A stretch of DNA of 64,000 nucleotides from Chloroflexota bacterium (GTDB lineage: Bacteria > Chloroflexota > UBA11872): assembly GCA_022821645.1 (NCBI GenBank), contig JAJEDE010000002.1:62001-126000 (forward strand), written 5' to 3'. This document shows positions 3,636 to 52,813 of the stretch, piece by piece. The notes beneath the pieces were generated by a model. It saw nothing but the letters and a program-made list of their open reading frames with translations. It was not told the origin of the DNA and did not search any database. The first letter of the stretch is position 1. Each line of letters begins with the position of its first letter. The position numbers and the translations under genes are program-made.

Positions 3636-3660
3636 AGCCATAGCCATCGACTCGCTGGAG

Positions 3661-25439: not shown

Positions 25440-26750
25440 ATGGACAGGATGCTATTGACTGCCACTTCTCAGACGCGTGTGGCCGCGTTGTTGATTTTGT
25501 TCGCCACGCTGAACGCACTCCTTTGGTCATTTGTGCGCGTACCCGGTAGCGGAGGACCTGACGAAAAGAGTCACTTCGGTGTTGTCGAACAAATGGTCTT
25601 TACCGGAAGACTCCCGGAATTCAACCCATACGAACCAGGGGCTTTTTCCGATGGCCCGGTCCGCGCTCAGGTCGCATACGAACTGACGCCAAACCTAGCA
25701 GCGATACCAGTAGCGATCACCCTTGCTGCGATAGGATCTGACGACTACGAATTCAACGTACATATCGCCCGACTATTTATGGTTGCACTTTATCCTGTCA
25801 CACTATGGTACGCATACCTCACATTACGACTAGTCTTCTCCAGTATTTCAATAGCTCCAATCTGGGGAATAGCCGCGATGGCCACAGTACCGATGTTCAC
25901 TCTCGTACATACATATTACACGAACGATGCCCCGGCTATTACGGCTTCGACGATCGCAACGTATGCACTGATTCGAGCACATCATTCGGCCTTTGCCACT
26001 TCCGACACAGTTCTTCTGGGAGTTTCGCTTGCAATCGTCGGACTCCATAAGTACACAGGCTTCTTGATGTTTCCCGTAACCGGCATCATGCTCACATGGC
26101 ATCTCTATCGACAACCAGCAGTTCTGATTCGAAGAGCCGTAATCATCTTTGGGATCGCGACTGCGATTGCTTGCTGGTGGTATGTCCGGAACTGGATGCT
26201 GTACGGCGATCCCTTCGGTGTAAGCTTCACACAAGCCGCCGTCGATGCCTCCGGCGGCGCCCCCAAGCCGCCAAGGGCACGAGGTCTCAACCCGATAGAC
26301 TTTGCCAGCCAGACCAGCTGGCTGCCTGAGAATTTTGCCTCGTTCTGGGCAGGTTATGGAGTGCACCGCCTTAAGCTCCCTGGTGCTGCATATCTGTCCT
26401 TTGTGGCACTAATCGCAGCGGCAGCTTTCGGCCTGATTTTTCGCGTTGCACGATCACTATGGCTTAGGCGTGCCCAGGACGCATCACCAGTTCTCTTCGT
26501 ATTTGGACTGCTTCATATCGGTCTATGGATGGTCAGTTTCTGGAGCAGCTACACAGTTGATGTCGCCCTGCATGGCAGGTATGTTTTCCCAACATTTGTT
26601 GCATTCATCGCTATCTTCATTTCGGGTTTGTCGGTATTTTCAAGATACGTTCGCATATCGTCTTTAGTTGCACCGATGACCATTCCCATTATGCTGGCTG
26701 CAAACGGAGCGTATTTCGTTCACTCGATTATCCCCGACGTGAATAGGTAA
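25440..26750 (+). CDS. polytopic membrane protein, GT-C/DUF2142-like glycosyltransferase candidate
   Basis: A 436-residue membrane protein with roughly ten hydrophobic segments. After the first segment an outer loop carries GGPDEKSHFGVVEQMVFTGRLP, with Asp41, Glu42 and His45; an acidic pair in this place is the hallmark of GT-C fold glycosyltransferases (PMT, ArnT, DUF2142), which transfer sugars from polyprenyl-phosphate donors outside the membrane. Further recognisable segments are VHTYYTNDAPA and WWYVRNWMLYGDPFG, the latter frequent in PMT-like proteins. DNA here is clearly richer in A+T than in most of the window, suggesting recent acquisition. The next gene begins four bases after the stop, so they form a pair. 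The donor and acceptor are unknown. Confidence 0.72.
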   Translation: MDRMLLTATSQTRVAALLILFATLNALLWSFVRVPGSGGPDEKSHFGVVEQMVFTGRLPEFNPYEPGAFSDGPVRAQVAYELTPNLAAIPVAITLAAIGSDDYEFNVHIARLFMVALYPVTLWYAYLTLRLVFSSISIAPIWGIAAMATVPMFTLVHTYYTNDAPAITASTIATYALIRAHHSAFATSDTVLLGVSLAIVGLHKYTGFLMFPVTGIMLTWHLYRQPAVLIRRAVIIFGIATAIACWWYVRNWMLYGDPFGVSFTQAAVDASGGAPKPPRARGLNPIDFASQTSWLPENFASFWAGYGVHRLKLPGAAYLSFVALIAAAAFGLIFRVARSLWLRRAQDASPVLFVFGLLHIGLWMVSFWSSYTVDVALHGRYVFPTFVAFIAIFISGLSVFSRYVRISSLVAPMTIPIMLAANGAYFVHSIIPDVNR

Positions 26751-27609: not shown

Positions 27610-28479
27610 CTAAGCGTCACGACGTACACGCATCGCTTCTGCCAACAGGCCCACACTGAATACCTGCACTCCAATTAGGAATGTCACCCCTGCCAGAATA
27701 CCCATCGCTCCAATCCCCAGTATCCCCCAAACCAGGACTGCTGCCAGTGCCAGTATCCACATGCCAGCCGTGAGAACAGCGAACAGCTTGACGGGATTAT
27801 GTCGAACCATAGCTTGAATGAGTACTTGGGCAATACGAAACGTGTCTCGAACGAGGCGAACCTTGGACGAACCAATCCGTCTGGCATAGTCGACAGGCAC
27901 GAACGCTACCGCTCGAGCGTCGCTGATCATGGCCAACGTCAGACCGGTTGTAAAACTGAATCCTGGGCTTAGAATGCCGAAATATCCGACGCAAGCGGAT
28001 TTATGGAATATGCGGTATCCAGAGTTTACGTCGGGGATCCGCCGGCCGACGACAAAACTCGAAAACACTCGTAGCCCCGTCCGTGCTAGCGCACGGAGGC
28101 CGCGACCTCGAAACTGCCGTCCTGTACGGGCTGCCACGACCATGTCAAAGTGCTCGGCAAGGCTGGTTAGATCTTCAACAGCCGAGGGTGGATATGTTCC
28201 GTCTGCATCACAAATCAAGACGTAGGGGTATCGAGCGGCGACGATCCCGCGCCGGAGTGCAATTCCATATCCAAGATTCTGCGGCGAACTTACGATGGTC
28301 GCGCCCGCATCGGCCGCAACGTCAGCCGTACGGTCGTCAGATCCGTCGTCTACGACCAGAACCTCGAAAGGCAGGCCGATTGTCTCCAGCGCTTTGCGAA
28401 GTCCAAGCACAACATTGCCAACGGCTCGTTCTTCGTTGTAAGCCGGCAACACAACCGATACACCTTCAATCACGGCCAT
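27610..28479 (-). CDS. GT2 glycosyltransferase, dolichyl/polyprenyl-phosphate sugar synthase-like
   Basis: A 289-residue family 2 glycosyltransferase with two C-terminal membrane segments. The GT-A domain shows VSVVLPAYNEE, VLVVDDGSDDRT and the metal-binding CDADG (Asp91, Asp93), followed by DVNSGYRIF. This matches DPM/ArnC-like enzymes that charge polyprenyl phosphate with a sugar on the inner membrane face, the donors that GT-C enzymes use. It fits well with the GT-C-like proteins nearby. The ATG at 28479 has GAGG just upstream; a GTG at 28488 is the alternative. It is the last gene of the minus-strand operon with the methyltransferase and the asparagine-synthetase-like gene, and its stop lies 12 bases from the convergent unknown gene. 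Confidence 0.9.
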   Translation of the reverse strand: MAVIEGVSVVLPAYNEERAVGNVVLGLRKALETIGLPFEVLVVDDGSDDRTADVAADAGATIVSSPQNLGYGIALRRGIVAARYPYVLICDADGTYPPSAVEDLTSLAEHFDMVVAARTGRQFRGRGLRALARTGLRVFSSFVVGRRIPDVNSGYRIFHKSACVGYFGILSPGFSFTTGLTLAMISDARAVAFVPVDYARRIGSSKVRLVRDTFRIAQVLIQAMVRHNPVKLFAVLTAGMWILALAAVLVWGILGIGAMGILAGVTFLIGVQVFSVGLLAEAMRVRRDA

Positions 28480-28503
28480 TCGCCTCACGACGGCCGATGA
28501 GTG

Positions 28504-29271: not shown

Positions 29272-31172
29272 GAAGCATCCAGCCAGCGCTCGCGCCACAT
29301 TTGAAACATCAGAATAGTCCAGATGGCCTTAGCATTGTTACGAGTCCGGCGTGCGTGTTGGTCAAGTAGGGTAGCAACTTCCGCAGGATCAAAAGCTCCC
29401 TCTCGTCTCAACCGTGCTTCGTTGAGATACTCATGGACTAGGCTGCGAAGGTCCTCGTTTAGCCACGCCGCGACGGGAATGCTGAAGCCCCGCTTGCGCC
29501 TAGTGATGATACTAGCTGGCAGCAGTCCCTTCACTGCCTTGCGCAAGATGTACTTTCGCGTCAAGCCACGGATCTTTAGGGTCACAGGAACTCGCTCAAG
29601 GTGCGCCAGCATGTCGCGATTGAGAAAAGGAACGCGCGTTTCAAGCGAAGTCGCCATGCTGGCGCGGTCTGTCTTGGCGAGAATGTCGCCTTCCAGGTAG
29701 AGCTTGAAGTCCTGGTAGAGGATTCGGTTCAGCGGATGCGTGGCACCGCTGGCGGCGGCCGTATCGGCCAACGTGGCTTCGAACTTGCCGTCGTCGGTTG
29801 CGCCCCTGACATCCGGATGCAGAACGGCAGCCTTGCTTTCGCCGAATAGAGATCCGGTCCACATCTGGTGCTGGCGCCACGGCGGAGCGTCGGCGCCTTG
29901 GATGAATCGACGCAGCAGGAAGTCGAAGGCCATGTAGCGCGGCGAGGCGGGAAGCCGCTCCGCGGCACGCTCCACGACTGCACGCCGAAAGGGTTCCGGC
30001 AGCATCCTGTACAGGGGCGCCAGTCGATGCGCCTGCAAGGTGGAATACCCAGCGAGCATCTCATCGCCGCCATCTCCGCCAAGAGCGACCTTCACGCGTT
30101 CACGTGCAAACCGACTGACCAAGTACGTGGGAACGATCGAGGGGTCGGCGAATGGTTCGTCGACAATTCCGGTAATCGTCGGCAGCGCTTCAAACAGGTC
30201 GGCTGGCGTAACTCGAAGCTCATGGTGCCGGGTGCCCAAGTGCGCCGCGACCATCCGTGCGTATCTGCTCTCATCGAAGGATCGTTCGGCAAACGACACG
30301 GAGAAGGACTGCACGGGCTCGTCGGCGGCTTGCGTCATGAAGGCCGCCACGGTGCTTGAATCGATGCCGCCGCTCAGCAGCACGCCAACGGGTACGTCGC
30401 TTACCATTTCCCGATTGACGGCCCGTCGCAGCACCTCGCGGAATGCGTGGACGTGGTCGTCCACGCTGCCTGGTAGCGGATCGCTTTCGGATTGCGCGAG
30501 CGACAGATCCCAATACGCTCGCTCGCTCACATGATCCATCGAAGCGGTCAGCACATGCCCCGGCCGAAGTTTCCGCACCCCATGCACAATGCTGGCCGGG
30601 GCCGGAATGTACTCGAGCGACAAGTACTGGCCCAGCGCCTGATAGTCCAACTTGCGAGGAACCAGGCCGCTTTTCAGCAGGGCCTTGAGTTCAGAACCAA
30701 AGACAAGGGCGCCATTGGCGTGGGCATAGTAGAGCGGCTTGATCCCGGCTCGGTCGCGCGCCAGCACCAGTCGTGCCCGGTCCTCGTCCCAGAGCGCAAT
30801 TGCAAACATGCCGTTGAGGTGGTTGACGAAGTCGTCGCCCCACTGCTCGTAGGCATGGACGATCGTCTCGGTATCCGAAAGCGTTCGGAATCGGTGTCCG
30901 AGGCCAGCCAGGGATTCGCGCAACTCCACAAAGTTGTAGATCTCGCCGTTGAACACGACATGAACGGTGTCCGTTTCATTGGACATCGGCTGATCGCCGC
31001 CCTCGAGATCGATAATGCTCAGTCGGCGCATGGTGAGTCGCACCGGGCCGCGAATAAACGAACCGTGCCCATCAGGGCCGCGGTGAATCAGCGATTCACG
31101 CATGGCGCGAAGAGCCGCCCGATCGTCGGGTCTCCGCTCGCCAAGTCGGAGAATCCCAGCTATTCCGCACAT
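29268..31172 (-). CDS. asnB: asparagine synthetase (glutamine-hydrolysing) family amidotransferase
   Basis: A 634-residue class II amidotransferase of the AsnB family. Cys2 is the glutaminase nucleophile (MCGIAGI), followed by HRGPDG and FNGEIYNF. The ATP-pyrophosphatase domain carries LLSGGIDSST at about residues 265-274, and LGGDGGDEMLAGY later. The length of about 630 and the location at the head of a glycosyltransferase/methyltransferase operon match the asparagine-synthase-like enzymes often found in exopolysaccharide loci, where they may amidate a sugar acid or other acceptor. Real asparagine synthesis remains possible. The ATG at 31172 leaves Cys2 exposed after Met removal, as needed for activity. 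The stop overlaps the methyltransferase start (ATGA). Confidence 0.92.
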   Translation of the reverse strand: MCGIAGILRLGERRPDDRAALRAMRESLIHRGPDGHGSFIRGPVRLTMRRLSIIDLEGGDQPMSNETDTVHVVFNGEIYNFVELRESLAGLGHRFRTLSDTETIVHAYEQWGDDFVNHLNGMFAIALWDEDRARLVLARDRAGIKPLYYAHANGALVFGSELKALLKSGLVPRKLDYQALGQYLSLEYIPAPASIVHGVRKLRPGHVLTASMDHVSERAYWDLSLAQSESDPLPGSVDDHVHAFREVLRRAVNREMVSDVPVGVLLSGGIDSSTVAAFMTQAADEPVQSFSVSFAERSFDESRYARMVAAHLGTRHHELRVTPADLFEALPTITGIVDEPFADPSIVPTYLVSRFARERVKVALGGDGGDEMLAGYSTLQAHRLAPLYRMLPEPFRRAVVERAAERLPASPRYMAFDFLLRRFIQGADAPPWRQHQMWTGSLFGESKAAVLHPDVRGATDDGKFEATLADTAAASGATHPLNRILYQDFKLYLEGDILAKTDRASMATSLETRVPFLNRDMLAHLERVPVTLKIRGLTRKYILRKAVKGLLPASIITRRKRGFSIPVAAWLNEDLRSLVHEYLNEARLRREGAFDPAEVATLLDQHARRTRNNAKAIWTILMFQMWRERWLDAS

Positions 31173-31604: not shown

Positions 31605-34601
31605 GTGACCATCGATCCCACAGTCGTGCCCGGCCTTCTCTTGCTGGCGCTTGAGCTTCTGGTTCTGGCAGCCGTCGGCTACATCGTCGCCCGTCTCGCG
31701 CTGCGGCAGTCCGACGACCTGGTGGCGCTGGCGCAGGGCATGCTTATCGGCCCTGCGTTGTGGGGGCTCATCGCAAACTTCGTCCTGCATCTGGCGCCCG
31801 GGCGGGTCGGGGCGCTGGTGTCTTGGATCGCATTGTTGGCTCTCGTTGCTGGCCTGGCATGGCGCTCGTCGCGACCGCTCAGGCCCAAGATGTTGAATGC
31901 GATTGGTCTCGCCACAGTTGCAATCATCACCTTCTGGGCAATGCTGGCCGCCCGACAGTTGCTACATATCACCGACGCGGAAATCCACCTGGGGCCGGCT
32001 GCCTACATTGGTGCGGGCGGCTGGCCGCCAGTCATTTCGTTCAACCCCGGTCAGTCGGTCCTCTATCACTACGGGGCCGATTTGCTGATCGGATTGCTGG
32101 TCCCGCCCGTCGGTCCCGACCTGCCATTCACGACTGAGTTGTTTGGCGCCTACGTATGGACCGGCTTTGCGCTAGCGACAGCGATGCTGCTACGGCGAGT
32201 CGGCGGCTGGATCAGCCTCCCCGTGCTGCTTCCGCTGCTGTTCACTCCTGGCGCCTGGACCCTCGTCGGTTTCATCATCGCTCCACCCGACATCCTGCAA
32301 GTCCCCGTCCCAGTCGGTGTGCCGGCAGCCGGCCTTCGCGCCTCACTGGCCGACATGTACTGGCCCGAAGTTTCGCTCCACTGGCAGACCGTCTACGAAG
32401 CCTCGCCGCCAAACATCTGGAAACCTCCATTCGTTCTGGCCTACGGGCTTGCGTTGATTGTGCTTAGTTGCGCAGCCAGGCGACGCCCATGGTCATCGTC
32501 GGCGGCGACTACGCTGGCCGCTCTGGTCGGATTCACCGGGCTGATAAGCGAAGAGATCGCGCTACTCACGCTGGCGCTGTGGGGCGCACTCGAGGCTGGT
32601 CGGGTTGTTAGCTGGCCCAGCCGCCTGACTCATAGAGCTCGCGAGCTCATCGTCTCCGTCCTACCGTTGGCGGCATCAAGGTTCGCCTGCTCGCAGCCAC
32701 CGGGCGACGGCACCACGCCGCCGCGCGCGCTGGATGGCCACGGGGAGCCGGATGTTCGCTCCGGGCGCTGGAAGACACACTTGCACCCTTTCGCAGGACC
32801 CGCGCTGGCCGCGCTGTTGCTAGCGGTCGGCGGCGGGCCGGTTACGGCGCTGCTGAGCGGGGTTTCAAGCGGAACTTCGCTCGGCTTGATCGACGATCTT
32901 GGCAGTCGACACCCGTTCGGCACGCCCCTGAAGTCGTGGCCGGGCGGCGTTGGACTGCTGGGGATCGGAGTGGTCCCGGTCGCAGCCACCGCCTTGATGC
33001 TGGCCTGGAGCCAGCGGGTCGTTCTGGCTCTGGTAGCCGGCGCCGCCGTGTTTATGGTGGCGGCGATTGCCCTCCAGCACCCAGCAGCCCAGTTTGACGT
33101 AACCAGGATGGACGGACACGCCCGCAACTTTGCCCTGCTGGCCCTGTTGATCGCCCTTAGTTGTCGGCTGTCAATGCTACGTCCAAGCTGGCGGTACGCC
33201 GCTGGCGCACTCATCGTCTTACTCGTCACCTGGCCTACCGTCGCCGGCGCTCTACGCACGTTTGGCCTTGAGGTAAGCCACGGGATCGAACTGGCCAATG
33301 CCCAGCCTGGCCCTCGGGGACGCGATCCCGAATTCGATTCCGACCGCTACTTCTCGGGCATGGGACGCCACACGACCAGACACTCGGTGTCGGAGCCGGT
33401 CGCCCAGTACATTCGCAGGCAGACAGCGGTCAACGCTCGAATCCTCTCGCCTCATCCACACGAATTGTCGGCCTCCACGGGCCGTCCCAACGCGTCGGGA
33501 TTCGCCGGACTCAACCATCTCCGGCCTCGAACAGGTCCCGAGTTTCTAGATTCCATCCGCTACCTTGAGCCGGCGGCCATCCGTCGTGCTGGCTTTGAGT
33601 ACCTTCACGCTCCAGATGCGTGGGTTGCATCGCTTCCCAACCAAGCTCTGCAGTGGCTGCAGGATCCTCGCTTCTTTGAACCGTTGGTTCGTGGCGACGC
33701 CGACTCGCTCTACAGCATCCGGGCGTCGTTCCTTCAGCTCAGTCCCAAGCCAACACCACAGTCGTTCGAGTCCCTTCGCCGGACTGTCCCCGAGTCCGCC
33801 ACCGTAGCGCTCGTCGGCCTGACCGGTATCGACGCGGCACGCGTAGCGTCGGCGTTGGAGCACGCCAAGTTGCTCGGAGACGCTAACCGGCCCGGCCTTC
33901 ACCTCCTGGAGCGAATCCCAACAGAGCCTCTGGGCACGCGTATCCCGGACGCATTAGTCCTTCCAGAGGGTTCAGCCAGCTTCTTTAGAGCCGGTCTTCC
34001 AGACTTTCCGCCAGAATGGAGAAGCCCCAGGGCAATCTGGCAGAGCCATGGACTCTCCGCCTACGCCGCCAGCCCGACGATTGCACCCACGGTGAATCTT
34101 CGTCCCCATCCAGACGATTTTGCAGTCCGTCTGTCCGACGTCCATTCAACGGGTGGCGCGATCACTTTCACCGCCACATTCGCCGATCACGCACCCAAGC
34201 AGTGGACGGGCCAGGATTGGCTGGTCGTGCCTCTGGACAATTCCGTTTGGCAGTTGCCGACCACCGTCGAGACCGATAGGTACACGTTATCGGGCGTTAT
34301 GCAGTGGTACGCCGGGCAAATCACCCCGGGGCGGGGTGTCACCAGTCACGTCTTTCAATTCGATCCCCGCTCAGTCAGCCTTGACTTGGGGAGGTCGACG
34401 GGCGAGTTTTTCGAAATCGAATCTTCCGGCGCTCCGCCTGGTCCGGGAGTCTGGGCCCTGACCGTCCGTCTACGGCATGGCTATCGGCAGGCGGCCACCA
34501 TTCCGATACTAAAGATCGTGGTCGCCGAAAGCGGAGACGTATCGTACAGGCTCTATGAAGACGAACTCCGCGCTAGCGTCGACCCTCGTCTCGAGCACTA
34601 G
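31605..34601 (+). CDS. GT-C-like giant membrane protein, paralogue 1 (longest)
   Basis: 998 residues. About 12 hydrophobic segments fill residues 1-560, and the remainder is predicted to be extracytoplasmic. The loop after the fourth segment has HITDAEIHLGPA (Asp124, His128) and then YHYGADLLIG (Tyr154-Gly157); an acidic residue plus His in this loop is what one expects of GT-C fold transferases. The soluble part carries ILSPHPHELSASTGRPNASG and, near the C terminus, WTGQDWLVVPLD and VWALTVRLRHGYRQAATIP. Unlike its relatives it has about 35-40 extra Pro/Gly/Arg-rich residues before the GPALAALLLAVGG segment (DNA about 32640-32780), which look like inserted sequence. It starts with GTG and no good ribosome site. 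It is the first gene of a three-gene plus-strand run. Function is inferred; a glycan polymerase or ligase is also possible. Confidence 0.8.
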   Translation: MTIDPTVVPGLLLLALELLVLAAVGYIVARLALRQSDDLVALAQGMLIGPALWGLIANFVLHLAPGRVGALVSWIALLALVAGLAWRSSRPLRPKMLNAIGLATVAIITFWAMLAARQLLHITDAEIHLGPAAYIGAGGWPPVISFNPGQSVLYHYGADLLIGLLVPPVGPDLPFTTELFGAYVWTGFALATAMLLRRVGGWISLPVLLPLLFTPGAWTLVGFIIAPPDILQVPVPVGVPAAGLRASLADMYWPEVSLHWQTVYEASPPNIWKPPFVLAYGLALIVLSCAARRRPWSSSAATTLAALVGFTGLISEEIALLTLALWGALEAGRVVSWPSRLTHRARELIVSVLPLAASRFACSQPPGDGTTPPRALDGHGEPDVRSGRWKTHLHPFAGPALAALLLAVGGGPVTALLSGVSSGTSLGLIDDLGSRHPFGTPLKSWPGGVGLLGIGVVPVAATALMLAWSQRVVLALVAGAAVFMVAAIALQHPAAQFDVTRMDGHARNFALLALLIALSCRLSMLRPSWRYAAGALIVLLVTWPTVAGALRTFGLEVSHGIELANAQPGPRGRDPEFDSDRYFSGMGRHTTRHSVSEPVAQYIRRQTAVNARILSPHPHELSASTGRPNASGFAGLNHLRPRTGPEFLDSIRYLEPAAIRRAGFEYLHAPDAWVASLPNQALQWLQDPRFFEPLVRGDADSLYSIRASFLQLSPKPTPQSFESLRRTVPESATVALVGLTGIDAARVASALEHAKLLGDANRPGLHLLERIPTEPLGTRIPDALVLPEGSASFFRAGLPDFPPEWRSPRAIWQSHGLSAYAASPTIAPTVNLRPHPDDFAVRLSDVHSTGGAITFTATFADHAPKQWTGQDWLVVPLDNSVWQLPTTVETDRYTLSGVMQWYAGQITPGRGVTSHVFQFDPRSVSLDLGRSTGEFFEIESSGAPPGPGVWALTVRLRHGYRQAATIPILKIVVAESGDVSYRLYEDELRASVDPRLEH

Positions 34602-34728: not shown

Positions 34729-37614
34729 ATGACGGTTGACACAGTCGTGGTTCCGGGACTGCTTCTCCTGATGGCCGGGTTGTTCTTGCTGGCAGCGGTC
34801 GGCTTCGTCGTAGCGCGAGTCGCATTGGGCCAGACCGACGATCGTATGGCCCTGGCCCAGGGGCTGGTCATCGGGCCGGCGCTGTGGGGGCTGCTGGCCA
34901 ACTTCATCCTGTACTTCATTCCGGGCCTGGCCGGCGCCCTTGCAACCTGGGTCGTCACCCTGGCCTTAGCCGCCGCCCTGGCCCGCCGCGCCGCGAGCAG
35001 GTTCCGAGTGTCGGCCCGCACGCTGGCCGGCTTCAGTCTGGTCAGTCTCGCCGTTTTCTGGGTTGCGCTGGCCTGCCGGCAATTGCTGAGCATTCCCGAC
35101 GAGGACATTCACCTGGCGATTTCGGCAACGATTCGAGCCGGTCAGTTCCCACCGGTGCTTTCGTGGATTCCGGACCAACGCCTTCCGTACCACTACGGCG
35201 CGGACCTGCTGATCGCGTTGTTGACCCCGCCCGTGGGCCCGGACTTCGCATTCACGACCGAAGTCCTCGGCGCCTTCATCTGGACAGGGTTCGTCTTGGC
35301 GGTCGCGACTGCCGTGATGCGACATGCGGGCGTCAGCGCTCTGATTCTCGTGCCGCTCCTCGTAACGGCCGGCGCGTGGTCATTGATCTGGTACGCCGAC
35401 GCCCCGCACATCCTGCAGGCGGCGGCGCCCGCCGGAATCCCCGGCGCGGGAATCCGCGCCTCCCTGGGCGAAATCTACTGGCCATCCGTTTCGCTGCCCT
35501 GGACGTGGCCCGGGGAGGCATCGCCGCCGAACATCTGGAAGCCTCCGTTTGTCCACAGCTATGCGCTGGGCTTTATCGTGCTCGAACGGGCGGCCGCGGC
35601 GGAAGGCACGACCGGGCGACGCAGGTGGCCGCTGGCGTTCCTGGTCGGATTCATGGGCCTGATGGCCGAAGAGGTCGCTCTTCTCGTCCTGGCCCTTTGG
35701 GTTGGCCTGGAGATCTTGCGGTTTATGCACGCCCGGTCAATGGACGCCGCGAACAGGCGCATCGTGCTGCGGGCGGCGGCTGGACCCTTACTGGCAGTGC
35801 TCCTGCTCGTTCTGGGGGGTGGAGTCATCACGAGTATGTTGACCGGCGCGGAAGGAAAAGAGCTGTCACTGGGATGGCACGCAGATGCGGGGAGCCGTCG
35901 GCCGCTGGGCGCCTTTGACGCCATGCCCGGCGGCGTCGGCATCCTCGGCCTTGGCGTGCTTCCCGTCGCTTTGGCCGCCGTGCTTCTCGCCAGGCGGAAT
36001 CGCCTCGTCCTGGCGCTGGCGGCTGCAAGCGGCGGATTCCTCCTGACCGCGCTGGTGCTGCAATACGAGCCGGCAGGTGAAGTCACCCGTTTGGACGGAC
36101 ACGCACGAAACTTCGCGCTGCTGGCGCTGTTGGTGGCGCTGAGCGTCAGCCTTCCGCGCCTAAGGCCTCGCTGGCGTTACGCCGCCCTGGCAAGCATTGC
36201 GGCGCTCGTGATCTGGCCGACGATTGTCACTCCAACACGCAGCATGGCCCTGGCGCTCAGTCGCGGGGTGCACCTCGCCAACGCGCAGCAGAGCGAGCGC
36301 GAATTCGACGAGTGGGTCATGGGACGGGCAGTCATTAAGTCCCTCCGTTCCGAGCGAATCGCTGCCTACATCCGCAGCCAGACCGCGATTGACGCCCGGG
36401 TTTTCTCTCCTTACCCGCACAGCATGACCGTCTCCACCGGCCGCCCAAACGCGTCCGGTTTCCCCACGCTTATCCACCTGTTCGCAATAACGGGCGCCGA
36501 ATACGAGGACGCGCTGCGTTCCCTGGAACCTTCGGCCGTCCAGCGTCTCGGCTTCACTTATCTCCACGCCTCGGACGAGTGGGTCGCGCGCCTGCCCGCC
36601 CGCGCGCGGGCGTGGCTACAGCGACCCGATCTATTCGAGCCATTGATCCGTGACGGCCCTGACGCGCTGTTCCGGATTCAACCGGGATTCCTGCAATTGA
36701 CTCCCGCGCCAGACGCCCAGTCGTACGAGGCGTTGCGGCGCCGCGTGCCCGATGGCGCCACGGTGCACGTGCCAACCCCCACCAGCCCGCTGACAGCAAT
36801 CCGCGTTGCCTCCGTGCTGCCGCACGCCCGGATACTGGGGGCGCTGGATCCGCACGTCCATTACTCGCTGACCAACATCCCAACCGAGCCCCTGGCCGGC
36901 CGCCTGCCCGACATCGTGGTCGTTGAGCGCGACCTATCGTTTGACATCAGCACGCAGGAATTCACCCCGATCTGGTGGAACCACGCGGCTGCGGCCTACT
37001 CCACAGGGCCTGAACGCGCGGCCGCCGTCGATCCTCCGCCAGATTCAGAGAGCTACGTCACCGTCCGGCTCTCGAACGTCAGCCGGCAAGACGCCCGGAT
37101 CAGCTTTACCGCCCACTTCGTGAACCATGCTCCCGGCCAGTGGACCGGCCAGGACTGGCTGCTGGTCCGCGTGGAGGAAACCGACTGGCCGTTGCCCAGC
37201 GAGTTCGAGTCCGACGGATACACCCTGGTGGGCGTCCGCTGGTTCGGGGGGCAGCTATCCCCAGACGTCGTCGACACCTCGATCAGGTACCGATTCAATG
37301 CCGGAACAGGCCAGCTGGAGTCGGACGATTCCGCCGGCGGCTTCGTTGCGCTTCCGACGTCAGGCAGCCCACTGGAGCCGGCCGAGTACGTCCTTGTAAC
37401 CAGACTCCAGCGCGAGTACCTGCAAGCGGCAATCATCCCGGTGCTGAAAGTCCGAGTCACGGAGACCGGGTCGGCGGCATTCGCGGGCTACGCAGGCGAA
37501 CGCCGCGTGTCAGTGAACGCATGCCCGGAACGTCTGCGGATCGCCGCCCTCGGGGCCACGCTGTGCCGCAACCTGGAACTCCAAGCCTCGCCGCTCGCTT
37601 CCAGGCAGAATTGA
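34729..37614 (+). CDS. GT-C-like giant membrane protein, paralogue 2
   Basis: 961 residues with the family plan: about 12 membrane segments, then a soluble part of about 430 residues. The loop signature is SIPDEDIHLAIS, here with an acidic triplet (Asp-Glu-Asp) before the His, followed by YHYGADLLIALL. Later segments are EASPPNIWKPPF, ATGR equivalent STGRPNASG, and WTGQDWLLVRVEETDW in the C-terminal beta domain. The C terminus extends beyond the family end with about 30 residues containing two cysteines (NACPERLRI...TLCRNLEL), a feature shared with paralogue 6. GGAGAG about nine bases before the ATG at 34729 is a fair ribosome site. The gap from the previous gene is 127 bases. Confidence 0.8.
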   Translation: MTVDTVVVPGLLLLMAGLFLLAAVGFVVARVALGQTDDRMALAQGLVIGPALWGLLANFILYFIPGLAGALATWVVTLALAAALARRAASRFRVSARTLAGFSLVSLAVFWVALACRQLLSIPDEDIHLAISATIRAGQFPPVLSWIPDQRLPYHYGADLLIALLTPPVGPDFAFTTEVLGAFIWTGFVLAVATAVMRHAGVSALILVPLLVTAGAWSLIWYADAPHILQAAAPAGIPGAGIRASLGEIYWPSVSLPWTWPGEASPPNIWKPPFVHSYALGFIVLERAAAAEGTTGRRRWPLAFLVGFMGLMAEEVALLVLALWVGLEILRFMHARSMDAANRRIVLRAAAGPLLAVLLLVLGGGVITSMLTGAEGKELSLGWHADAGSRRPLGAFDAMPGGVGILGLGVLPVALAAVLLARRNRLVLALAAASGGFLLTALVLQYEPAGEVTRLDGHARNFALLALLVALSVSLPRLRPRWRYAALASIAALVIWPTIVTPTRSMALALSRGVHLANAQQSEREFDEWVMGRAVIKSLRSERIAAYIRSQTAIDARVFSPYPHSMTVSTGRPNASGFPTLIHLFAITGAEYEDALRSLEPSAVQRLGFTYLHASDEWVARLPARARAWLQRPDLFEPLIRDGPDALFRIQPGFLQLTPAPDAQSYEALRRRVPDGATVHVPTPTSPLTAIRVASVLPHARILGALDPHVHYSLTNIPTEPLAGRLPDIVVVERDLSFDISTQEFTPIWWNHAAAAYSTGPERAAAVDPPPDSESYVTVRLSNVSRQDARISFTAHFVNHAPGQWTGQDWLLVRVEETDWPLPSEFESDGYTLVGVRWFGGQLSPDVVDTSIRYRFNAGTGQLESDDSAGGFVALPTSGSPLEPAEYVLVTRLQREYLQAAIIPVLKVRVTETGSAAFAGYAGERRVSVNACPERLRIAALGATLCRNLELQASPLASRQN

Positions 37615-37663: not shown

Positions 37664-40483
37664 ATGACGATTGACCCCACCGTTATTCCCGGCCTCCTGC
37701 TGCTCGCCGCCGAACTGTTCGTACTTGCCGCCGTCGGATACATGGTCGCGCGCGTTGCGCTGCGGCAGACGGATGATCGACTGGCGCTGGCGCAGGGGTT
37801 GGTGATTGGGCCGGCGCTGTGGGGGCTGACTGTCAACTTTCTCCTGCATGTGCTGCCGGGGCTGTCCGGCACGCTGGCGGGCTGGATCGTCGTTCTGGCC
37901 GTCGGCGCTGGTCTGACGTGGCGATGTCGCGACGACCTACGGGTTCCGCCTCGAACGATCGCTGGCTTCGGCCTCGCCGGCACCGCCATCTTCTGGGTGG
38001 CGCTGGCCAGCCGCCAACTGCTGATTATCCCGGACGAGCTTCTCCATACCACGCTTCCCGCCACAATCCGCGCCGGCGGCTGGCCGCCGACGCTGTCCTG
38101 GAATCCCGATCTGGACCTGGCGTATCACCATGGCATCGACTTGCTAATCGGGTTGCTGACGCCACCGATGGGACCGGATCTGGCGTTCACGACCGAGTTG
38201 CTTGGCGCTTTTGTCTGGACCAGCTTGATCACGCAGGCAGGGGCACTGCTCCTGCGGCATGGTTCGTGGGCCAGCACGCTGGCGTTGACCCCGCTGCTGC
38301 TTTCGGCCGGCGCGTGGACACTGGTGTTTGGCGAACAACCGACGATGGTTCAGGTTCCAGTGCCCACCGGCATTCCATCGGCCGGACTGCGCGCAGCGCT
38401 GACCGAGACTTACTGGCCGGCTGTGGAACTGCCATGGTCATCGGAACAACACGCGACTCCGCCAAACATCTGGAAACCTCAATTCTCATTTGCGTACCCG
38501 CTGGCGTTCGTGACGTTGGAGCGGGTCGCCGCCAAGAACGACCATACTTGGCCGGCCGGTTTGACGCTGGCGGGCCTGGTGGGGTTCCTGGGCATAGTGG
38601 ACGAAACGGTTGCTCCGGTGGCGTTGGCACTGTGGGTCGTGGTCGAAGCCAGCCGGCTGCTCCAGACTCGACCGACTGGTTCAACTCCCCTGCGAACTGT
38701 CCTGCGCACAGCGGCGGGCCCCACGCTGGCTGCACTGCTGCTCGCCGGGGGCGGCGGGGTACTTACGGGAATTCTAACCGGGGGCTCCGGATCCGGCGAC
38801 CTGGCACTCGCATGGCCCCTAGACCCTCGAGACCGAGGCGCAGTGAGTTCCGTAACACCTATTGCGGGAGGACTGGGTCTACTTAGGCTCGGATCCTTGG
38901 TCGTGGTCGGTGCCGCCCTAGTCTTGGCAGCTCGCAGCCATCTTGTTCTTGTCTTGGTGGCAGGTGCTGGCGCATTCCTGCTCGCCGCCTTGACGCTGCG
39001 GTACGACATCGCGCCGCATGACATTGGCAGGTTCGACGGGCATGCCCGTAACTTTGCGCTGCTGGCGCTCATGCTGGCGCTGAGCATCCGTCTCGGGACC
39101 CTACAGTCACGGTGGCGCTACGCTGCCGCCGTGCTCGTCGCGGCACTCATCGCTTGGCCTACTGTCGCCACGCCGGCACGCAAACTCAGCCTCGCGATTG
39201 GGCATGGCGTGCAGATTGCCAACGCGCAGCCAGGACTCGGCGAGTTCGACGTTTGGTACTGGTGGATGGGGAGATACGCGCTGGAACGCTTCCCTTCCGA
39301 TCGGATTGCCGCTTGGCTCCGTGATCACACGGACCCAAATGCGCGAGTTCTCTCCCCCATGCCCCACGCGATGACTATCGCCACCGGCCGACCGAACGCC
39401 TCGGGTTTCGCACAGTTCTTGCACACGCGACCTCATATAGGACCCTCGTATCTGGACGCGGTCCGCCACTTAGAACCCGCAGCGCTCCAACGGCTCGGTT
39501 TCAGATACATCCACGCGCCGGACACGTGGGTTGCCAATCTCCCTGAGCGTGCCGCTCACTGGCTGGCTGATCCGAAGTTCTTCGAACCACTCATCCGCGA
39601 TGGCGCCCAATCGCTCCTCCGGGTGCGGCCGGCGTTCTTGCAGCTCGACATCCCGCCAGCCCCCGGCACCTACGAAGCCCTGCGACTGGCTGCTCCAACA
39701 GGATCGACGGTGTATCTCTCGCCAGCAACGGACTCGCTCAATACATTCCGCGCTGCTGCAGCGCTCCGCTATGCTCGGCTTTTCGGTTCGCCAGACCGAG
39801 CAGCCTTGCATCTGCAGGAAGACTTGAGCTTTGCGCCACTCGGTGGCCATGGTGCAGACCTCGTGGTAGCGCCAGTGCGGATGGCTCCGTCCGTGTTTGA
39901 GCATGACGTACGACGCCCAATCCTGTGGAACGACGAGATTGCCGTTTATTCCCCCAACGGAGCGGTGGAACCCGTCATGGACCCACCGCCACAGCCATTC
40001 AGCGTCCGCTTGTCGGACCCGCAAGTAATGAGGGGACGCCTCGCCTTCTCCGCTGAACTCACCGATCAGACCGGTGTCGGCTGGACAGGCCAGGACTGGC
40101 TGGTCGTGCCGGCGGACGCCTCGCCGTGGGCATTTCCGCTCATCCGACCAACCGACACCGCGGCCCAATGGTTTGCGGGACAGGCCGTACCGCGGCCCGG
40201 GACGATCACGCATCGGTACGAGTTCGACCCGCAGAAGGCCACTCTGGCGCTGCACGGGGGAGGGCGTAGCCTGACCGAGCTTCCATCGTCCGGCGCTGGG
40301 CTGGATCCTGGCGTTTGGGTATTGGGTGTGCGCCTTCGTAACGACTACCAGTTGGTCGCCTTCATTCCAACAGTGAAGATCGTGGTTTCAGACTCACGCG
40401 AGGTGTCGTATCACGTCTACGAGGGCGAGCTTGGAGTGCGACCGACCCCGGGTCCGGTAGGTTCGTCGAAGGGGCGGTTCTGA
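37664..40483 (+). CDS. GT-C-like giant membrane protein, paralogue 3
   Basis: 939 residues, same architecture. The loop reads IIPDELLHTTLP, so the Asp and His are kept while the intervening residues differ; next comes YHHGIDLLIGLL, where the usual YHYG is YHHG. The soluble part has VLSPMPHAMTIATGRPNASG and FFEPLIRDG, and the end has WTGQDWLVVPADASPW and VWVLGVRLRNDYQLVAFIP. It starts at an ATG 49 bases after paralogue 2, with GAGGG about 12 bases upstream, so it is probably co-transcribed. It is convergent with the epimerase gene, 123 bases away. No obvious terminator with a T-tract lies in that gap. Confidence 0.8.
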   Translation: MTIDPTVIPGLLLLAAELFVLAAVGYMVARVALRQTDDRLALAQGLVIGPALWGLTVNFLLHVLPGLSGTLAGWIVVLAVGAGLTWRCRDDLRVPPRTIAGFGLAGTAIFWVALASRQLLIIPDELLHTTLPATIRAGGWPPTLSWNPDLDLAYHHGIDLLIGLLTPPMGPDLAFTTELLGAFVWTSLITQAGALLLRHGSWASTLALTPLLLSAGAWTLVFGEQPTMVQVPVPTGIPSAGLRAALTETYWPAVELPWSSEQHATPPNIWKPQFSFAYPLAFVTLERVAAKNDHTWPAGLTLAGLVGFLGIVDETVAPVALALWVVVEASRLLQTRPTGSTPLRTVLRTAAGPTLAALLLAGGGGVLTGILTGGSGSGDLALAWPLDPRDRGAVSSVTPIAGGLGLLRLGSLVVVGAALVLAARSHLVLVLVAGAGAFLLAALTLRYDIAPHDIGRFDGHARNFALLALMLALSIRLGTLQSRWRYAAAVLVAALIAWPTVATPARKLSLAIGHGVQIANAQPGLGEFDVWYWWMGRYALERFPSDRIAAWLRDHTDPNARVLSPMPHAMTIATGRPNASGFAQFLHTRPHIGPSYLDAVRHLEPAALQRLGFRYIHAPDTWVANLPERAAHWLADPKFFEPLIRDGAQSLLRVRPAFLQLDIPPAPGTYEALRLAAPTGSTVYLSPATDSLNTFRAAAALRYARLFGSPDRAALHLQEDLSFAPLGGHGADLVVAPVRMAPSVFEHDVRRPILWNDEIAVYSPNGAVEPVMDPPPQPFSVRLSDPQVMRGRLAFSAELTDQTGVGWTGQDWLVVPADASPWAFPLIRPTDTAAQWFAGQAVPRPGTITHRYEFDPQKATLALHGGGRSLTELPSSGAGLDPGVWVLGVRLRNDYQLVAFIPTVKIVVSDSREVSYHVYEGELGVRPTPGPVGSSKGRF

Positions 40484-47094: not shown

Positions 47095-49908
47095 CTAGTC
47101 AAGCAGCCTCGCCTCAAGATCGCCCTCATAGACCTCGTAATCCACACTCCCGTCCTGAGCGACCACGATCTTCATGACCGGAATCAGTGCAACTTCCCAC
47201 CACTCACCCCTGAGGCGCACCGCCAGCGTCCACACACCCGGCTCCAGCCCGGAGCCGGATGACTCCGCAACCTCGAATTCGCCTCCATCACCCCGCACGG
47301 CCAACGTTGCCGACCGCGGGTCGAATTCGTAGAAATGTCGCGTCGTTCCCTGGCCTGGGAGAACTTGCCCCGCGAACCATTGCGCGCCGGCGTGACGGAC
47401 ACCATCAGCTTCGAACCGGCTCGGAAACGCCCATTGGGAGCCATCCGTTGCTAACACCAGCCAGTCCTGCCCCTTCCACTCCTGGCGCATGTTGTCGGTA
47501 AATGTGGCGGAAAAGGCAATGCGCCCCTCGGATTCTTCGACATCTGCCATGCCGACGCTGAACGCAGTGTTGGCGGCGTTTGCTCTGGGCTTCGACACGT
47601 CTCGCAGCGCATAAGCGGCGAGTTCGCCGTTCCACCAAATTGGCTGGCGAAACCGCTGGTCAAGCGCGGACGGCGCGAGCACGGACGATGTGATCACGAA
47701 ATCGGGACGGCTTATCCCGAGAGGCGCCGTGGGAACGCGCGTCTGCAGGTGCAGAATCGACGAGGGTTCGACGCCAAGGCGTTGGGTGTTCCACAACGTC
47801 GCTGCGGCCCTGAGGGCAGCCAGCCGTTCGACATCCTTTGGCAGGATGCTCGGTGAGAAGTAGACCGTGGACCCTGGAGGAACCGCCTCTCGCAAGGCTT
47901 CAAATGAACCTGATGTCGGCGGCGATTCCAGGTCCCGGAACGCGGGCAGGACACGGTAGAGCGCGTCGGTGCCATCGCGGATCAGCGGCTCAAAGAAGCG
48001 ACGGTCGGCCAGCCACCGCCTCGCTCGGTCCGGCAGGCCGGTCACCCACCTGTCCGTAGCGTGAACATAGTCGAAACCGCGACGTTGCAGGGCGGCAGGC
48101 TCGAGGAATCTGATTGCGTCCAGGTACTCAGGACCAGGCTCGTAGCTGTAGTGCGCAAACTGCATGTAGCCGGCAGCGTTGGCACGTCCCGTGGAGGCTG
48201 AGAGACCGGTGGGGCTCGGCGAGAGGACGCGAGCGTTGATTCCGGTATGCGTGCGAATGTAGTCAGCGACGCGTTCCGCGGGGGGCTCCCCGAGTTCGTA
48301 CCGGCCGAGGAAGCTCCACAAGGCGTCGGGCGGGCCAGGCGAGGCCTGAGCGATCTGCAGCCCGCGGCTTAGCGCGTAGCCGATGTTGTGCACCGGCCGT
48401 ATGACCGTTGGCCACGCAATGAGCGCCACGGCTAGCGCACCCACCGTGTAGCGCCAGCGGGCGCGCACGGCACGCTGGCAGCGCGCCACGGCGAACAGCA
48501 GGGCCAGCAGCGCAAGGTTTCGAGCGTGCCCATCCAACCGGGTCACGTCTCTTGCCGGTTCGTATTGCAGGATGAACGCAGCGAGCAGACACGCAACGCT
48601 GCCGGCTACCAGCGTCAATACAAGGCGGTTGCGCCGGCCGAGCAACGCGGCTGCCATCGCGACCGGAATGAGCCCGACTTCCAGCACGCCGACACCGCCC
48701 GGAAGGGATGTTAAGCCTCCCACCGGTCGGCGGCTGGCTGGATCGTCAATCCACCCGAGCGTCAGTCCACTGCCGACGGAGCCGGCGAGCACGCCCGTGA
48801 TCACCCCGCCGCCGACGACGAGCAACCCCAGGGCAATCCCGGGTCCCGCGGCCGAGCGCACGATTTCCGCTCGGCTCAGGGAGCGCAGGCGCCAGCATTG
48901 CGCCAGGCGAATGGCCTCCACGACCGCCCAAAGCACCAGCACAATCAGCGTGAGGGTTTCCTCCACGAGGCCTGCAAACCCAACCAGTGCGGCCAGGGTC
49001 AGAACCGCCGGCCACGACCGACGCTTGCTGGTGACGACCCAGGTGAGCACGACGAACAGCAGGGCATATGCCAGCACGAACAGGGGCTGCCAGATGTTGG
49101 GAGGTGACACCTGGACGGGAGCGTTCCAAATCGCCTCCGGTGCTTCGAGCGATGGCCAATAGACACTCCCCAACGACGCACGCAAACCGGCCGCCGGGAT
49201 GCCTGCCGGGAGCGGGACCCGAAGGAGCCCCGGGGGTTCCGTGTAGTGAACCAGCGTCCAGGCACCGGCCGTGAGCAGAAGCGGGGTGAGCGTCAAGGCC
49301 GCCATCCCACCAAGCCGTACCAGGGTCGTCGCGATCACAAGGACAAAGCTGGTCCACACGTAAGCCCCCAGCAACTCGATCATGAAGACTGGCCCCGGTC
49401 CAGCCGGAGGGCTGAGAAGCCCGACCAATAGGTCCACTCCGTAGTGGTAGTACACGGGGATTCCTGGATTCCAGGGCAGGGCCGGCGGCCAAGCTCCCGC
49501 CCGGATAACAGCAGAGAGTCCCAGGTGGATATCGGGATCGGTGATTGAGATGAGCTGGCGGCTGGCCAAGGCGATCCAGAGCAACACCAGCGCCGCGGCA
49601 ACAAAACCCACGACCGTACGCGGCGGCAGGCGCAGCTTGTCGTGCGCGCGCCAGACCAGTCCGGCGCCGAGGGTCAGAGTGATTCCCCAGGCCACCATGG
49701 CTCCGGGCAGCCCCGGGACCACATACAAGACCAAGTTCGCGATCACGCCCCAGAGCCCCAGGCCAATAACCATGCCCTGGGCCAACGCCATCCGGTCGTC
49801 GTTCTGCCCCAGGGTCACGCGCGCGACGGCAAAGCCAACGGCAGCCAGAACCACCAGCTCCAAGCCGAGCAGCAATAGGCCTGGAATCACGGATACGTTG
49901 ACCGTCAT
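47095..49908 (-). CDS. GT-C-like giant membrane protein, paralogue 4
   Basis: 937 residues with the family plan of about 12 membrane segments and a large extracytoplasmic C-terminal part. The loop motif is SITDPDIHLGLS (Asp-x-Asp before the His), followed by YYHYGVDLLVGLL. Later landmarks are VSPPNIWQPLF, RLDGHARNLALLALLFAV, ARVLSPSPTGLSASTGRANAAG (NASG changed to NAAG), and WKGQDWLVLATDGSQW, where the usual Thr/Ser after Trp is Lys. It ends in WTLAVRLRGEWWEVALIPVMKI. ATG at 49908. It is the last of four minus-strand copies and sits 104 bases upstream of the DUF3604 gene. Confidence 0.8.
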   Translation of the reverse strand: MTVNVSVIPGLLLLGLELVVLAAVGFAVARVTLGQNDDRMALAQGMVIGLGLWGVIANLVLYVVPGLPGAMVAWGITLTLGAGLVWRAHDKLRLPPRTVVGFVAAALVLLWIALASRQLISITDPDIHLGLSAVIRAGAWPPALPWNPGIPVYYHYGVDLLVGLLSPPAGPGPVFMIELLGAYVWTSFVLVIATTLVRLGGMAALTLTPLLLTAGAWTLVHYTEPPGLLRVPLPAGIPAAGLRASLGSVYWPSLEAPEAIWNAPVQVSPPNIWQPLFVLAYALLFVVLTWVVTSKRRSWPAVLTLAALVGFAGLVEETLTLIVLVLWAVVEAIRLAQCWRLRSLSRAEIVRSAAGPGIALGLLVVGGGVITGVLAGSVGSGLTLGWIDDPASRRPVGGLTSLPGGVGVLEVGLIPVAMAAALLGRRNRLVLTLVAGSVACLLAAFILQYEPARDVTRLDGHARNLALLALLFAVARCQRAVRARWRYTVGALAVALIAWPTVIRPVHNIGYALSRGLQIAQASPGPPDALWSFLGRYELGEPPAERVADYIRTHTGINARVLSPSPTGLSASTGRANAAGYMQFAHYSYEPGPEYLDAIRFLEPAALQRRGFDYVHATDRWVTGLPDRARRWLADRRFFEPLIRDGTDALYRVLPAFRDLESPPTSGSFEALREAVPPGSTVYFSPSILPKDVERLAALRAAATLWNTQRLGVEPSSILHLQTRVPTAPLGISRPDFVITSSVLAPSALDQRFRQPIWWNGELAAYALRDVSKPRANAANTAFSVGMADVEESEGRIAFSATFTDNMRQEWKGQDWLVLATDGSQWAFPSRFEADGVRHAGAQWFAGQVLPGQGTTRHFYEFDPRSATLAVRGDGGEFEVAESSGSGLEPGVWTLAVRLRGEWWEVALIPVMKIVVAQDGSVDYEVYEGDLEARLLD

Positions 49909-50011: not shown

Positions 50012-52813
50012 TCACGGAGCCAGAACCGAGTCCAGAACTCCCGAATAGACCTCATAGGTCACCTCGCCATCCGTGGCAATGACTATTTTCATTACCGGGA
50101 TAAAGGCAACCTCCCACCAATCGCCGCGCAGGCGCACAGCTAATGTCCAGATGCCGGGCCCCAGCCCTTCTCCAGAAGATTGCGCAGCTGCAAATGCACC
50201 GTCCTCGCCACGGACCAGCAGCTTCGGCGCAAGAGGATCAAACTCAAACCTGTGAGTCGTGGATTCCTGTCCCGGTATGACCTGACCAGCAAACCACTGT
50301 CTGCCCGCGTGACGCCGTCCATCATCTTCGAGCTCGCGGGGAAACGCCTAGGGGGACGTGTCCGCGGCAGCAACCAGCCAGTCCTGACCGCTCCACCGAC
50401 TGGGAACCCGATCGGTGAACAAAGCCGTAAAGGCAACGCTCCCGTCCATGATTTGAACGTCAGATAGTTGAAGGCTAAATAGCGGAGCGGCCGGCGAGGT
50501 AATGGGGATATAGTCGCCACGGGGTGTGTAGACGGCCAGTTTGTCATTTCTCCAGACGGGCTGGCGTGCGTCCGGGATTAGTGCCGACGGTGCCACCAGG
50601 CTGGAAACCACTACGAAGTCAGGCGTGGAAGAGCCCAGTGGCTCTGTTGGCATCTCTGTTAGAAGATACAGGTTGGCGTGATGCAATTGGCCTAAGAGTC
50701 GAGCATGCGCCAGGACAGAAGCAACGCGAACGCTGTCGATCGGATCTATTGCTGGCGCGAGATAGACTTTGGCAGACGCAGGCACCGTTCGGCGCAAGGC
50801 CTCAAATGACCCCGGCGAAGGCTGGACCTCAAGTTCAAGAAATGCTGGCTGGATTCGGAGGAGGCTGCTAGTTCCCAAGAGAAGCAGCGGGTCAAAAAGC
50901 TGAGGATCCGCTAGCCACTCTTGTGCCCGTTCGGGTAGATCAGCAATCCAGTCAGACGGAGCATGCACGTGCGTAAAGCCGAGACGACGAATTGCCGAGG
51001 GTTCCAAATAGCGAGTGGAGTCCAAGTATTCTGCCCCGCCCTTTGGGTGCAGATGCAAATGCCCGGGAAAGCCAGAAGCGTTGCTTCGACCTGTGGCAAT
51101 TGTAATACGAGACGGTTCCGGCGAGAGAATGCGCGCGTTAGCGTCCATGTTTCTATCGATATAGGTAACCATCTGGTTAGGTATCGGTCTTCCTACTACG
51201 TAACGACGCATGAGATTCGAGACAAACGGCTGCCCTGGCTGCGCGTTCTCTAGCTTGGGGCCGTGGGCCATCCCCAAGAGCATGCTGTGAGTGGGTGCCG
51301 CGACAGTTGGCAATGTGACAATTGAAAGCAACCCAGCTCCTAGGACGTGGCGCCAGAGCGGACGCAGCAACACGAGACGGCCACTGATGGCGATCAGCAA
51401 TGACAGCAGAGCAAACGTTCGCGCGTGCCCATCCAGTCGGGTCACATCGCGCGCAGGCTCGTATTGCAGCATCAGCGAAGCAAGCAGAAACGCAATGCTT
51501 GCGGCCGACAGGGCCATTACAAGTTGGTCGCGTCGAGCCAGTAAACCGGCAAAAATAGCGACCACCAATGGGCCGATTCCCAGCACGCCAATCCCGCCCT
51601 GCAATGCGTCGAGTGTTGCCAGCGGTCGTCGGCTCTCGGCGTCAGGAGTCCACGACACCTCAAAATCACCCACACTTCCAAGTGAGCCTGTCAAAATGCC
51701 CGTAACCACCCCGCCGCCCGCCACCAGCAGCAACGTGGCGATCGCCGGGCCTGCGGCTGACCGAGAAACCAAATGCCAGTCGGGACTCCGCCCGAATAGG
51801 AACTTTCGAACGCTCATAACTTCCAGGACTGCCCAAAGTGTCAGGGCCATTAGGGCAACCGTTTCCTCCATCAAGCCTACGAATCCGACGAGGGCTGAAA
51901 GCGTGAGAACTGCCCACCACGAGCCGAGCCTGCGGCTACCGGCTGAGGTCAGCACGACGAGAAACAGTGCATAGGTGAGGAGAAACTGGGGCTTCCAGAT
52001 GTTTGGTGGCGACGCCTCAACCGGACGGGTCCAAGGCAGCTCAGCCGCCTCAACCGCTGGCCAGTAAATCTCCGCCAACGCGGCACGCAGGCCAGCCGCT
52101 GGCAAACCGGTAGGGACGGGAATCCGCAGAACGTCTGGTGCAGTCACGTAGCCAATTAGCGTCCAAGCACCTGATGAGAGCAGAAGTGGGGTCAATACGA
52201 GCACACTTACCCACCCACCTCGGCGTAGCATGGTCGCTACGATTAAGGCGAGCGCAGTCCACGCATACGCCCCAAATATCTCTGTCACTAGCGCCAGATC
52301 CGGCCCGGATGGCGGAGCCAGCAGCCCGATCAGCAAGTCCGTGCCATAGTGATAGTAGAGAGGCAGCCATGGATTCCACGGCAGGGTCGGTGGCCAACTT
52401 CCGGCCCGGATAGCGGCGGCTACTTCCAGGTGAATTTCAGGATCGGGGATCGTAAGCAGTTGCCTAGCGCCTAATGAAACCCAGAACAGCACTAAGGCTA
52501 TGGCGGTAAACCCAACAATCCCGGGCAACGAACACCTGAGCCTTAGCCGCCTCCGCCAGGCAAGTCCAAGTCCGATTGCAAGCACGACGGCCCAAGCTAC
52601 GGCCGCACCTCCTCTACCGGGAATCAAGTACATCACAAAGTTCACAGTCAATCCCCAGAGGGCTGGACCAATCACTAGACCTTGAGCCATCGCCATCCAA
52701 ATGTCGGCCTGCCGTAAGAGGGTTCGTGAGACGACCAAGCCCAGCCCGGAGAGCGCAAAGAACTCTAGAGCCAGGAGCGCTAGCCCGGGCAAGACCTCAA
52801 GGTCAACCGTCAC
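50012..52813 (-). pseudogene. GT-C-like giant membrane protein, paralogue 5, interrupted by an in-frame TAG
   Basis: The frame runs from GTG at 52813 for 821 codons to TAG at 50350-50348, and then continues in the same frame for 112 more codons to TGA at 50014-50012. The continuation is clearly family sequence: AFPRELEDDG, QWFAGQVIPGQ, WTLAVRLRGDWWEVAFIPV. The stop falls exactly where all six relatives have Trp (SPWAFP or similar), so one G-to-A change turned TGG into TAG. Everything else is intact: IPDPEIHLEVA, YHYGTDLLIGLL, EASPPNIWKPQF, WSGQDWLV. No in-frame start lies soon after the TAG, so the product would lose most of the C-terminal beta domain. TAG is an ordinary stop for other genes here, so recoding is unlikely. 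Confidence 0.85.

Follow-up and report, generated by a model that had tools for sequence, protein, structure and literature searches.

Asp-x3-His and Tyr-His residues as a candidate active site in an unnamed GT-C-type membrane protein family related to DUF2298

A stretch of 64,000 nucleotides from a Chloroflexota bacterium (contig JAJEDE010000002.1, positions 62,001-126,000; hereafter the window) encodes seven copies of an unnamed membrane protein, all of which carry the same short motif in an outer loop. Does this motif mark the active site of an enzyme and, if so, of what kind? The evidence given below suggests that the seven copies, which are related to DUF2298, are probably class A GT-C glycosyltransferases, in which Asp-124 would be the catalytic acid, His-128 its helper and the YH[YHF]G element a contact for the donor.

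A preliminary description of the locus had placed an Asp-x3-His pair and a following YH[YFH]G in the first large outer loop of all seven copies, pointing to positions 31965-32080, which are codons 121-159 of copy 1. Both elements are indeed present, with the same residue numbering in 7/7 copies: D124-x3-H128 and, beginning 26 residues past H128, YH[YHF]G at residues 154-157 (Table 1). Residue 156 is tyrosine in five copies, histidine in copy 3 and phenylalanine in copy 6. The triplets opening the Asp-His element are DAE, DED, DEL, DPD, DPE, DAD and DAY; the six listed originally are correct and DAD had been left out. The loop of residues 118-172 contains no lysine or arginine and the flanking inner loops contain three each, which places the motif on the outer side. 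As 177 of the 810 ungapped columns in the seven-copy alignment are also invariant, constancy of the motif among these copies is weak evidence by itself. The reading frame of copy 5 remains open and homologous past its in-frame TAG, and a further copy in the same genome (contig C27, ∼42-45 kb) is likewise broken by a TAG; because TAG is an ordinary stop of other window genes, the two interrupted frames look like decayed copies.

Table 1. Positions of the family copies, their motifs and neighbouring genes in the window.
Feature	Position	Strand	Description
PMT-family (PF02366) membrane protein	25440..26750	+	D41-EKS-H45 at 25560-25574
GT2 enzyme	27610..28488	-	best NCBIfam rows include the polyprenyl-phosphate-sugar synthases AglJ, ArnC and PpgS, all below cut-off
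Asparagine-synthase-like gene	29268-31172		beside the GT2 gene
Copy 1	31605..34601	+	ORF; 998-aa membrane protein, unnamed GT-C family
Copy 1 D124-A-E-I-H128	31974..31988	+	tip and first turn of JM1 (first loop helix, residues 125-136)
Copy 1 Y154-H-Y-G157	32064..32075	+	start of JM2 (second loop helix, residues 157-165)
Copy 1 R501-x-D-G-H505-A-R507	33105..33125	+	conserved basic motif; candidate donor-phosphate site (putative role)
Copy 2	34729..37614	+	DEDIH 35098-35112; YHYG 35188-35199
Copy 3	37664..40483	+	DELLH 38033-38047; YHHG 38123-38134
Copy 4	47095..49908	-	DPDIH 49525-49539; YHYG 49438-49449
Copy 5	50348..52813	-	early end at in-frame TAG; DPEIH 52430-52444; YHYG 52343-52354
Copy 6	52850..55762	-	DADIH 55379-55393; YHFG 55292-55303
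Copy 7	55861..58695	-	DAYLH 58312-58326; YHYG 58225-58236

Searches of Pfam and NCBIfam with the seven window copies gave no match above cut-off, neither to PMT (PF02366) nor to DUF2298; a match of copy 7 to NCBIfam PopT (11.6 bits, cut-off 400) was taken as chance. Sequence searches of the PDB with copy 1, a 55-row family profile (A2), the protein encoded at 25440 and the remote match L109 (see below) also yielded no meaningful match. The fold was examined in an AlphaFold2 model of copy 1 (mean pLDDT 88.3, pTM 0.87), which contains helices at residues 96-117, 125-136, 157-165 and 173-200. Structural comparison of the full model by VIA-align returned GT-C enzymes in rows 1-31 (STT3, AftA, ArnT, PMT, AftB, AftD, ALG12, ALG9, DPY19, PglB, AglB and EmbC), with Z scores of 13.4 to 7.7, of which values of 10-14 are below or at the level that the program's own note flags for helical bundles. 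The STT3 soluble domain followed in rows 32-33, aligned to model residues 593-722, and the first unrelated row had a Z of 6.7. The chain identity of three OST/translocon rows (6ftg_5, 8b6l_I and 9n9j_I) was taken from their titles, and absence from the rows, as of ALG6, does not exclude a family. WaaL, a GT-C_B enzyme, appeared at a Z of 5.5 only. A separate prediction of residues 119-722 (crop model; pLDDT 84.3, pTM 0.86) gave, in rows 1-47 of the best 50, either an OST domain or the GT-C fold, the latter occupying rows 1-43 and 45-47; one of the rows, 8imx_U, is presumably the PIGU chain. Foldseek alone was weaker, with two matches at E ≤ 0.001, both to GT-C proteins, and TM-scores of 0.24-0.32. 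The GT-C core starts at model residues 90-101 in most VIA-align rows, so that helix 96-117 corresponds to GT-C TM1 and three helices lie ahead of the core. As modelled, the family thus has the GT-C_A core (TM1, two juxtamembrane helices and TM2 onward), and the comparison supports the predicted motif-bearing loop as the GT-C first outer loop.

A catalytic Asp or Glu at the tip of JM1 is a hallmark of GT-C_A enzymes, and in the model D124, which directly precedes helix 125-136, fits this place. Its register against solved enzymes was read, row by row for the crop model (in which D124 is residue 6), from the pair that opens the alignment, followed by counting without gaps. The first aligned pair with CeDPY19 (7zlg and 7zli) joins D124 to Glu71, the proposed catalytic base, whose Ala, Gln, Leu and Met variants are reported to be dead. 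Counting places D124 on D58 of PimE (9dm5), D55 of ArnT (5f15), D62 of AftB (9dlh), D56 of PglB (5ogl and 6gxc) and D47 of AglB (3wak), each of which is named as a catalytic acid in the published descriptions. The catalytic acid is known for 24 rows; the register was exact in 8 of them, within two residues in 5 and off by 4-17 in 11, so that 13/24 place D124 within two residues of the acid and 11/24 do not. All 11 misses begin at residue 1 of the crop, and the 10 rows beginning at residues 2-6 gave seven exact matches and three within two; a gap in the loop ahead of D124 could explain the misses in these model-based alignments.

Conservation was assessed in a set drawn from the same genome, from stretches or loci of 18 related genomes and from a further 33 loci of named Chloroflexota. 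Filtering for coverage reduced 268 ORF hits to 216, of which 146 were distinct, and removal of contained fragments left the 124 rows of the set; its redundancy is high, with an effective number of 53.6 at 62% identity. At an E value under 1e-80, 20/61 related genomes carry the family, each with 2-17 matches. Where relatives are named, they are metagenome-assembled genomes of Chloroflexota, many of whose sample names we take to denote marine sponges. In the 124 rows, residue 124 is Asp in 118, Glu in 3, His in 2 and Asn in 1, and H128, Y154, H155 and G157 are kept in 105, 121, 123 and 116, respectively. One row is a distant relative from the same genome (L066, Glu at 124), and the counts on 123 rows leave it out: an acid at 124 in 120, H128 in 104 (elsewhere S, R, N, Q, D, V, A or Y), Y154 in 120, H155 in 122 and G157 in 115. 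By weighted entropy, H155 ranks 27th, Y154 35th, G157 66th, D124 82nd and H128 256th of 915 columns, and within the motif Tyr154-His155 varies least as far as the alignment goes. The invariance foreseen in the preliminary description thus holds nearly throughout for the acid and for Tyr154, His155 and Gly157, and fails for His128. We rejected His128 as an essential invariant residue as well as D124 as a universal one.

The three members without an acid at 124 may be inactive or altered copies. Two of them, from different genomes (L079:15804-18653 and L061:11840-14686), have H124/R128/F154 in common; this lineage retains H155 and R501 and is a possible pseudoenzyme. The third is a copy in the window's own genome (L017) with N124/D128. 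Under the scheme proposed here, some copies therefore cannot be active. The genome has 11 family copies; the one on contig C27 keeps the pair (DEIAH), and three on contig C24 carry D/S, D/S and N/D at 124/128, so that none of these three has H128 and one lacks D124. Gly replaces R507 in 4/123 rows (L035:20153-23104, L041:4827-7772, L041:10964-13912 and L049:14475-17399), all of them among the seven with R128, as if an arginine had crossed the pocket. This co-occurrence is probably one event by descent, and hence it lends weak support to the idea that residue 128 and the R501-R507 motif share a pocket.

Activity cannot be taken for granted from a GT-C fold: PIGU is described as having this fold without transferase activity, and the three acid-less members would fit a protein for scaffolding or lipid handling in which the motif is structural. 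We consider this improbable, given that the acid is kept in 120/123 members beside the highly variable columns 125-126, that the YH pair and R501 (123/123 rows) are kept, and that D124 coincides exactly with the catalytic acid in some of the structures. By fold, register and conservation, D124 is the best candidate for a catalytic carboxylate, in line with the original guess that the acidic residue marks the catalytic site.

What this acid would do is a separate matter. The preliminary description had it bind metal and donor, and D124 and H128 could jointly hold a divalent metal and through it the donor phosphate, since OST and ArnT are reported to use the equivalent acid with metal and H128 is present in 104/123 members. 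We regard a metal site as unlikely. H128 is lost in 19/123, and at a threshold of at least 85% the acidic columns within residues 88-599 are 124, 172, 178 and 498 only, which leaves the middle outer loops without a second ligand of the DxD/DxE type; in particular, no second acidic column like the D154/D156 motif of PglB is conserved in residues 179-497. This pattern does not favour an OST-type metal site. The published accounts further describe PimE, AftA, ALG6 and DPY19 as metal-independent and OST as needing metal, and they have the JM1 acid of GT-C_A enzymes act mainly on the acceptor, as a base (PimE and DPY19), or else, in AftB, as a nucleophile. The earlier reading was correct as to the acid and the loop in which it lies; the histidine appears secondary, and the metal role is not supported.

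The residues between Asp and His are of another character. Across 123 rows, 75 different triplets occur at 125-127, and residue 126 ranks 905th of 915 by weighted entropy, among the most variable columns. Some clades have fixed versions, DAYLH in 9/9, DEDIH in 6/7 and DPDIH in 3/3, and in clade information residue 126 comes 3rd to 8th among 903 columns. However, of the 38-46 columns with similar entropy, 8-12 are fixed by clade to at least the same degree, and judged from the alignment residue 126 shows some clade specificity, though not in excess of equally variable columns. For enrichment of clade-specific columns near the three motifs, three cut-offs for defining clades gave P values of 0.0037, 0.021 and 0.094, in windows picked after the list had been seen. 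These weak statistics neither demonstrate nor speak against the donor tuning by the middle residues that the preliminary description suggested.

More distant homologues extend the pattern. Starting from L066, which is encoded on contig C11, a second subfamily of 20 rows was reached, in which one protein appears twice (L066 = L084); the 19 distinct proteins have an acid at 124 in 17, H128 in 16 and YHYG in 19. Six still more distant proteins from the class or phylum have D124 in 6/6, H128 in 4/6 (Asn in two) and YHY in 6/6. A remote match, L109, belongs to DUF2298/Chlor_Arch_YYY (344 and 528 bits); L066, L105, L106, L107 and L110-L112 gave no DUF2298 match above the Pfam or NCBIfam cut-off. When a mixed profile of 68 rows was compared with DUF2298, 549 columns were aligned with a probability of 97.8 and an E value of 1e-12, against 15.0 and 8.4 for reversed controls; single-family profiles reached 79.1 and 94.2, against 0.5-0.9. 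D124 and H128 align with the first and second acids of a [DE]-x3-[DE] element, and YHY lies opposite YYY. On the strength of these profiles the window family is homologous, by common descent, to DUF2298/Chlor_Arch_YYY (PF10060, TIGR03662), and we regard it as an unnamed sister to DUF2298 and a probable member of the GT-C enzymes. DUF2298 shares the loop layout: of 28 segments, four stop short of the motif, and the 24 reaching it (23 distinct stretches) all have [DE]-x3-[DE], FPP-x-DPW and YYY. The window family differs in having H128 in place of the second D/E, and YHY, YHH or YHF in place of YYY. DUF2298 occurs in 79 of the 121 Chloroflexota genomes searched; ordinary matches lie at C7:66327-67772 and C10:87415-88935 in the genome studied here, as in most of these genomes, and Haloferax volcanii, which served as a control in this search, has one DUF2298 protein. 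A literature search for Chlor_Arch_YYY found no paper, and DUF2298 has hitherto been named only for its YYY motif.

These observations can be assembled into a mechanism. D124, on the outer side at the tip of JM1, would be the catalytic carboxylate, most likely activating the acceptor as a base. A helix turn further along, H128 would hold or tune D124 in most members; we assign it a helper role because it occupies the +4 position of Y62 in PimE and is replaceable within the family. Y154-H155-[YHF]156-G157 at the start of JM2 would take the place of Lys85, the donor-phosphate contact of ArnT, and together with R501/H505 could hold the phosphate of a polyprenyl-phosphate sugar. A donor contact formed by YH[YHF]G plus R501/H505 is the more likely arrangement, and R501 may, by analogy, be the donor-phosphate arginine found near TM10 in OST.

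The genes near copy 1 encode an asparagine-synthase-like protein, a methyltransferase, the GT2 enzyme and the protein at 25440, surroundings that resemble those in a glycan locus. The GT2 enzyme, ∼3 kb away, is by this proximity a possible donor maker for the family. The protein at 25440 had been called unrelated-looking; in fact it matches PF02366 PMT over residues 80-264 (E = 2.1e-7), which makes it a GT-C-type protein itself, and its own D-x3-H fits the GT-C reading. Farther off on the forward strand, a 3485-aa polyketide synthase (6373-16830) has two ketosynthase stretches, KR, DH and methyltransferase; a penicillin-amidase family protein (3553-6036, forward strand) lies directly upstream of it and a phosphopantetheinyl transferase (17256-17987) after it.

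The proposal provides an unnamed family with a function that can be tested and a residue for mutagenesis, and for DUF2298 it suggests the hypothesis that YYY forms the loop on the donor side of a GT-C active site. More tentatively, the multiple copies might form a metal-free toolbox, with Asp-His catalysis, a Tyr-His-Tyr donor clamp and clade-fixed middle residues that help to set sugar or acceptor; homology to the window family would then make DUF2298/Chlor_Arch_YYY proteins GT-C glycosyltransferases too, with a YYY clamp.

Among known GT-C systems, STT3, PglB and AglB have the top Z scores in both VIA-align lists, and the model has an STT3-like domain at residues 593-722 (2zag_B, Z 7.2, 102 residues, rmsd 2.9), as an OST-like enzyme moving whole glycans onto protein would have. 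We doubt that the family works in this way: the WWD motif of STT3 is absent from its consensus and DxD/DxE from its conserved acidic columns, and AftA, AftB, ArnT and PMT lie within one Z unit of the top, so that the ranking is not decisive. AftA (8if8) gives the greatest aligned length with the full model, 483 residues at Z 12.9 and rmsd 6.0 with 10% identity; this alignment starts from model residue 30, so that helices ahead of the core align too. ArnT (5ezm and 5f15) scores Z 12.5 and 12.3, with D55 matched in 5f15 and the register of 5ezm four residues off. Its K85, close to where the second loop helix begins, is reported to contact the donor phosphate and lies at D55+30, in parallel with Y154 and H155 at D124+30 and +31, a lysine there and Tyr-His here. 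PimE (9dm5) aligns over only 236 residues at Z 9.6, lacks large outer domains and has Tyr rather than His at +4. Nevertheless, its D58 at the JM1 tip is matched by counting, and its D-x3-Y dyad, in which Y62 is described as hydrogen-bonding D58 and Y62A as inactive, parallels the D-x3-H of the window family.
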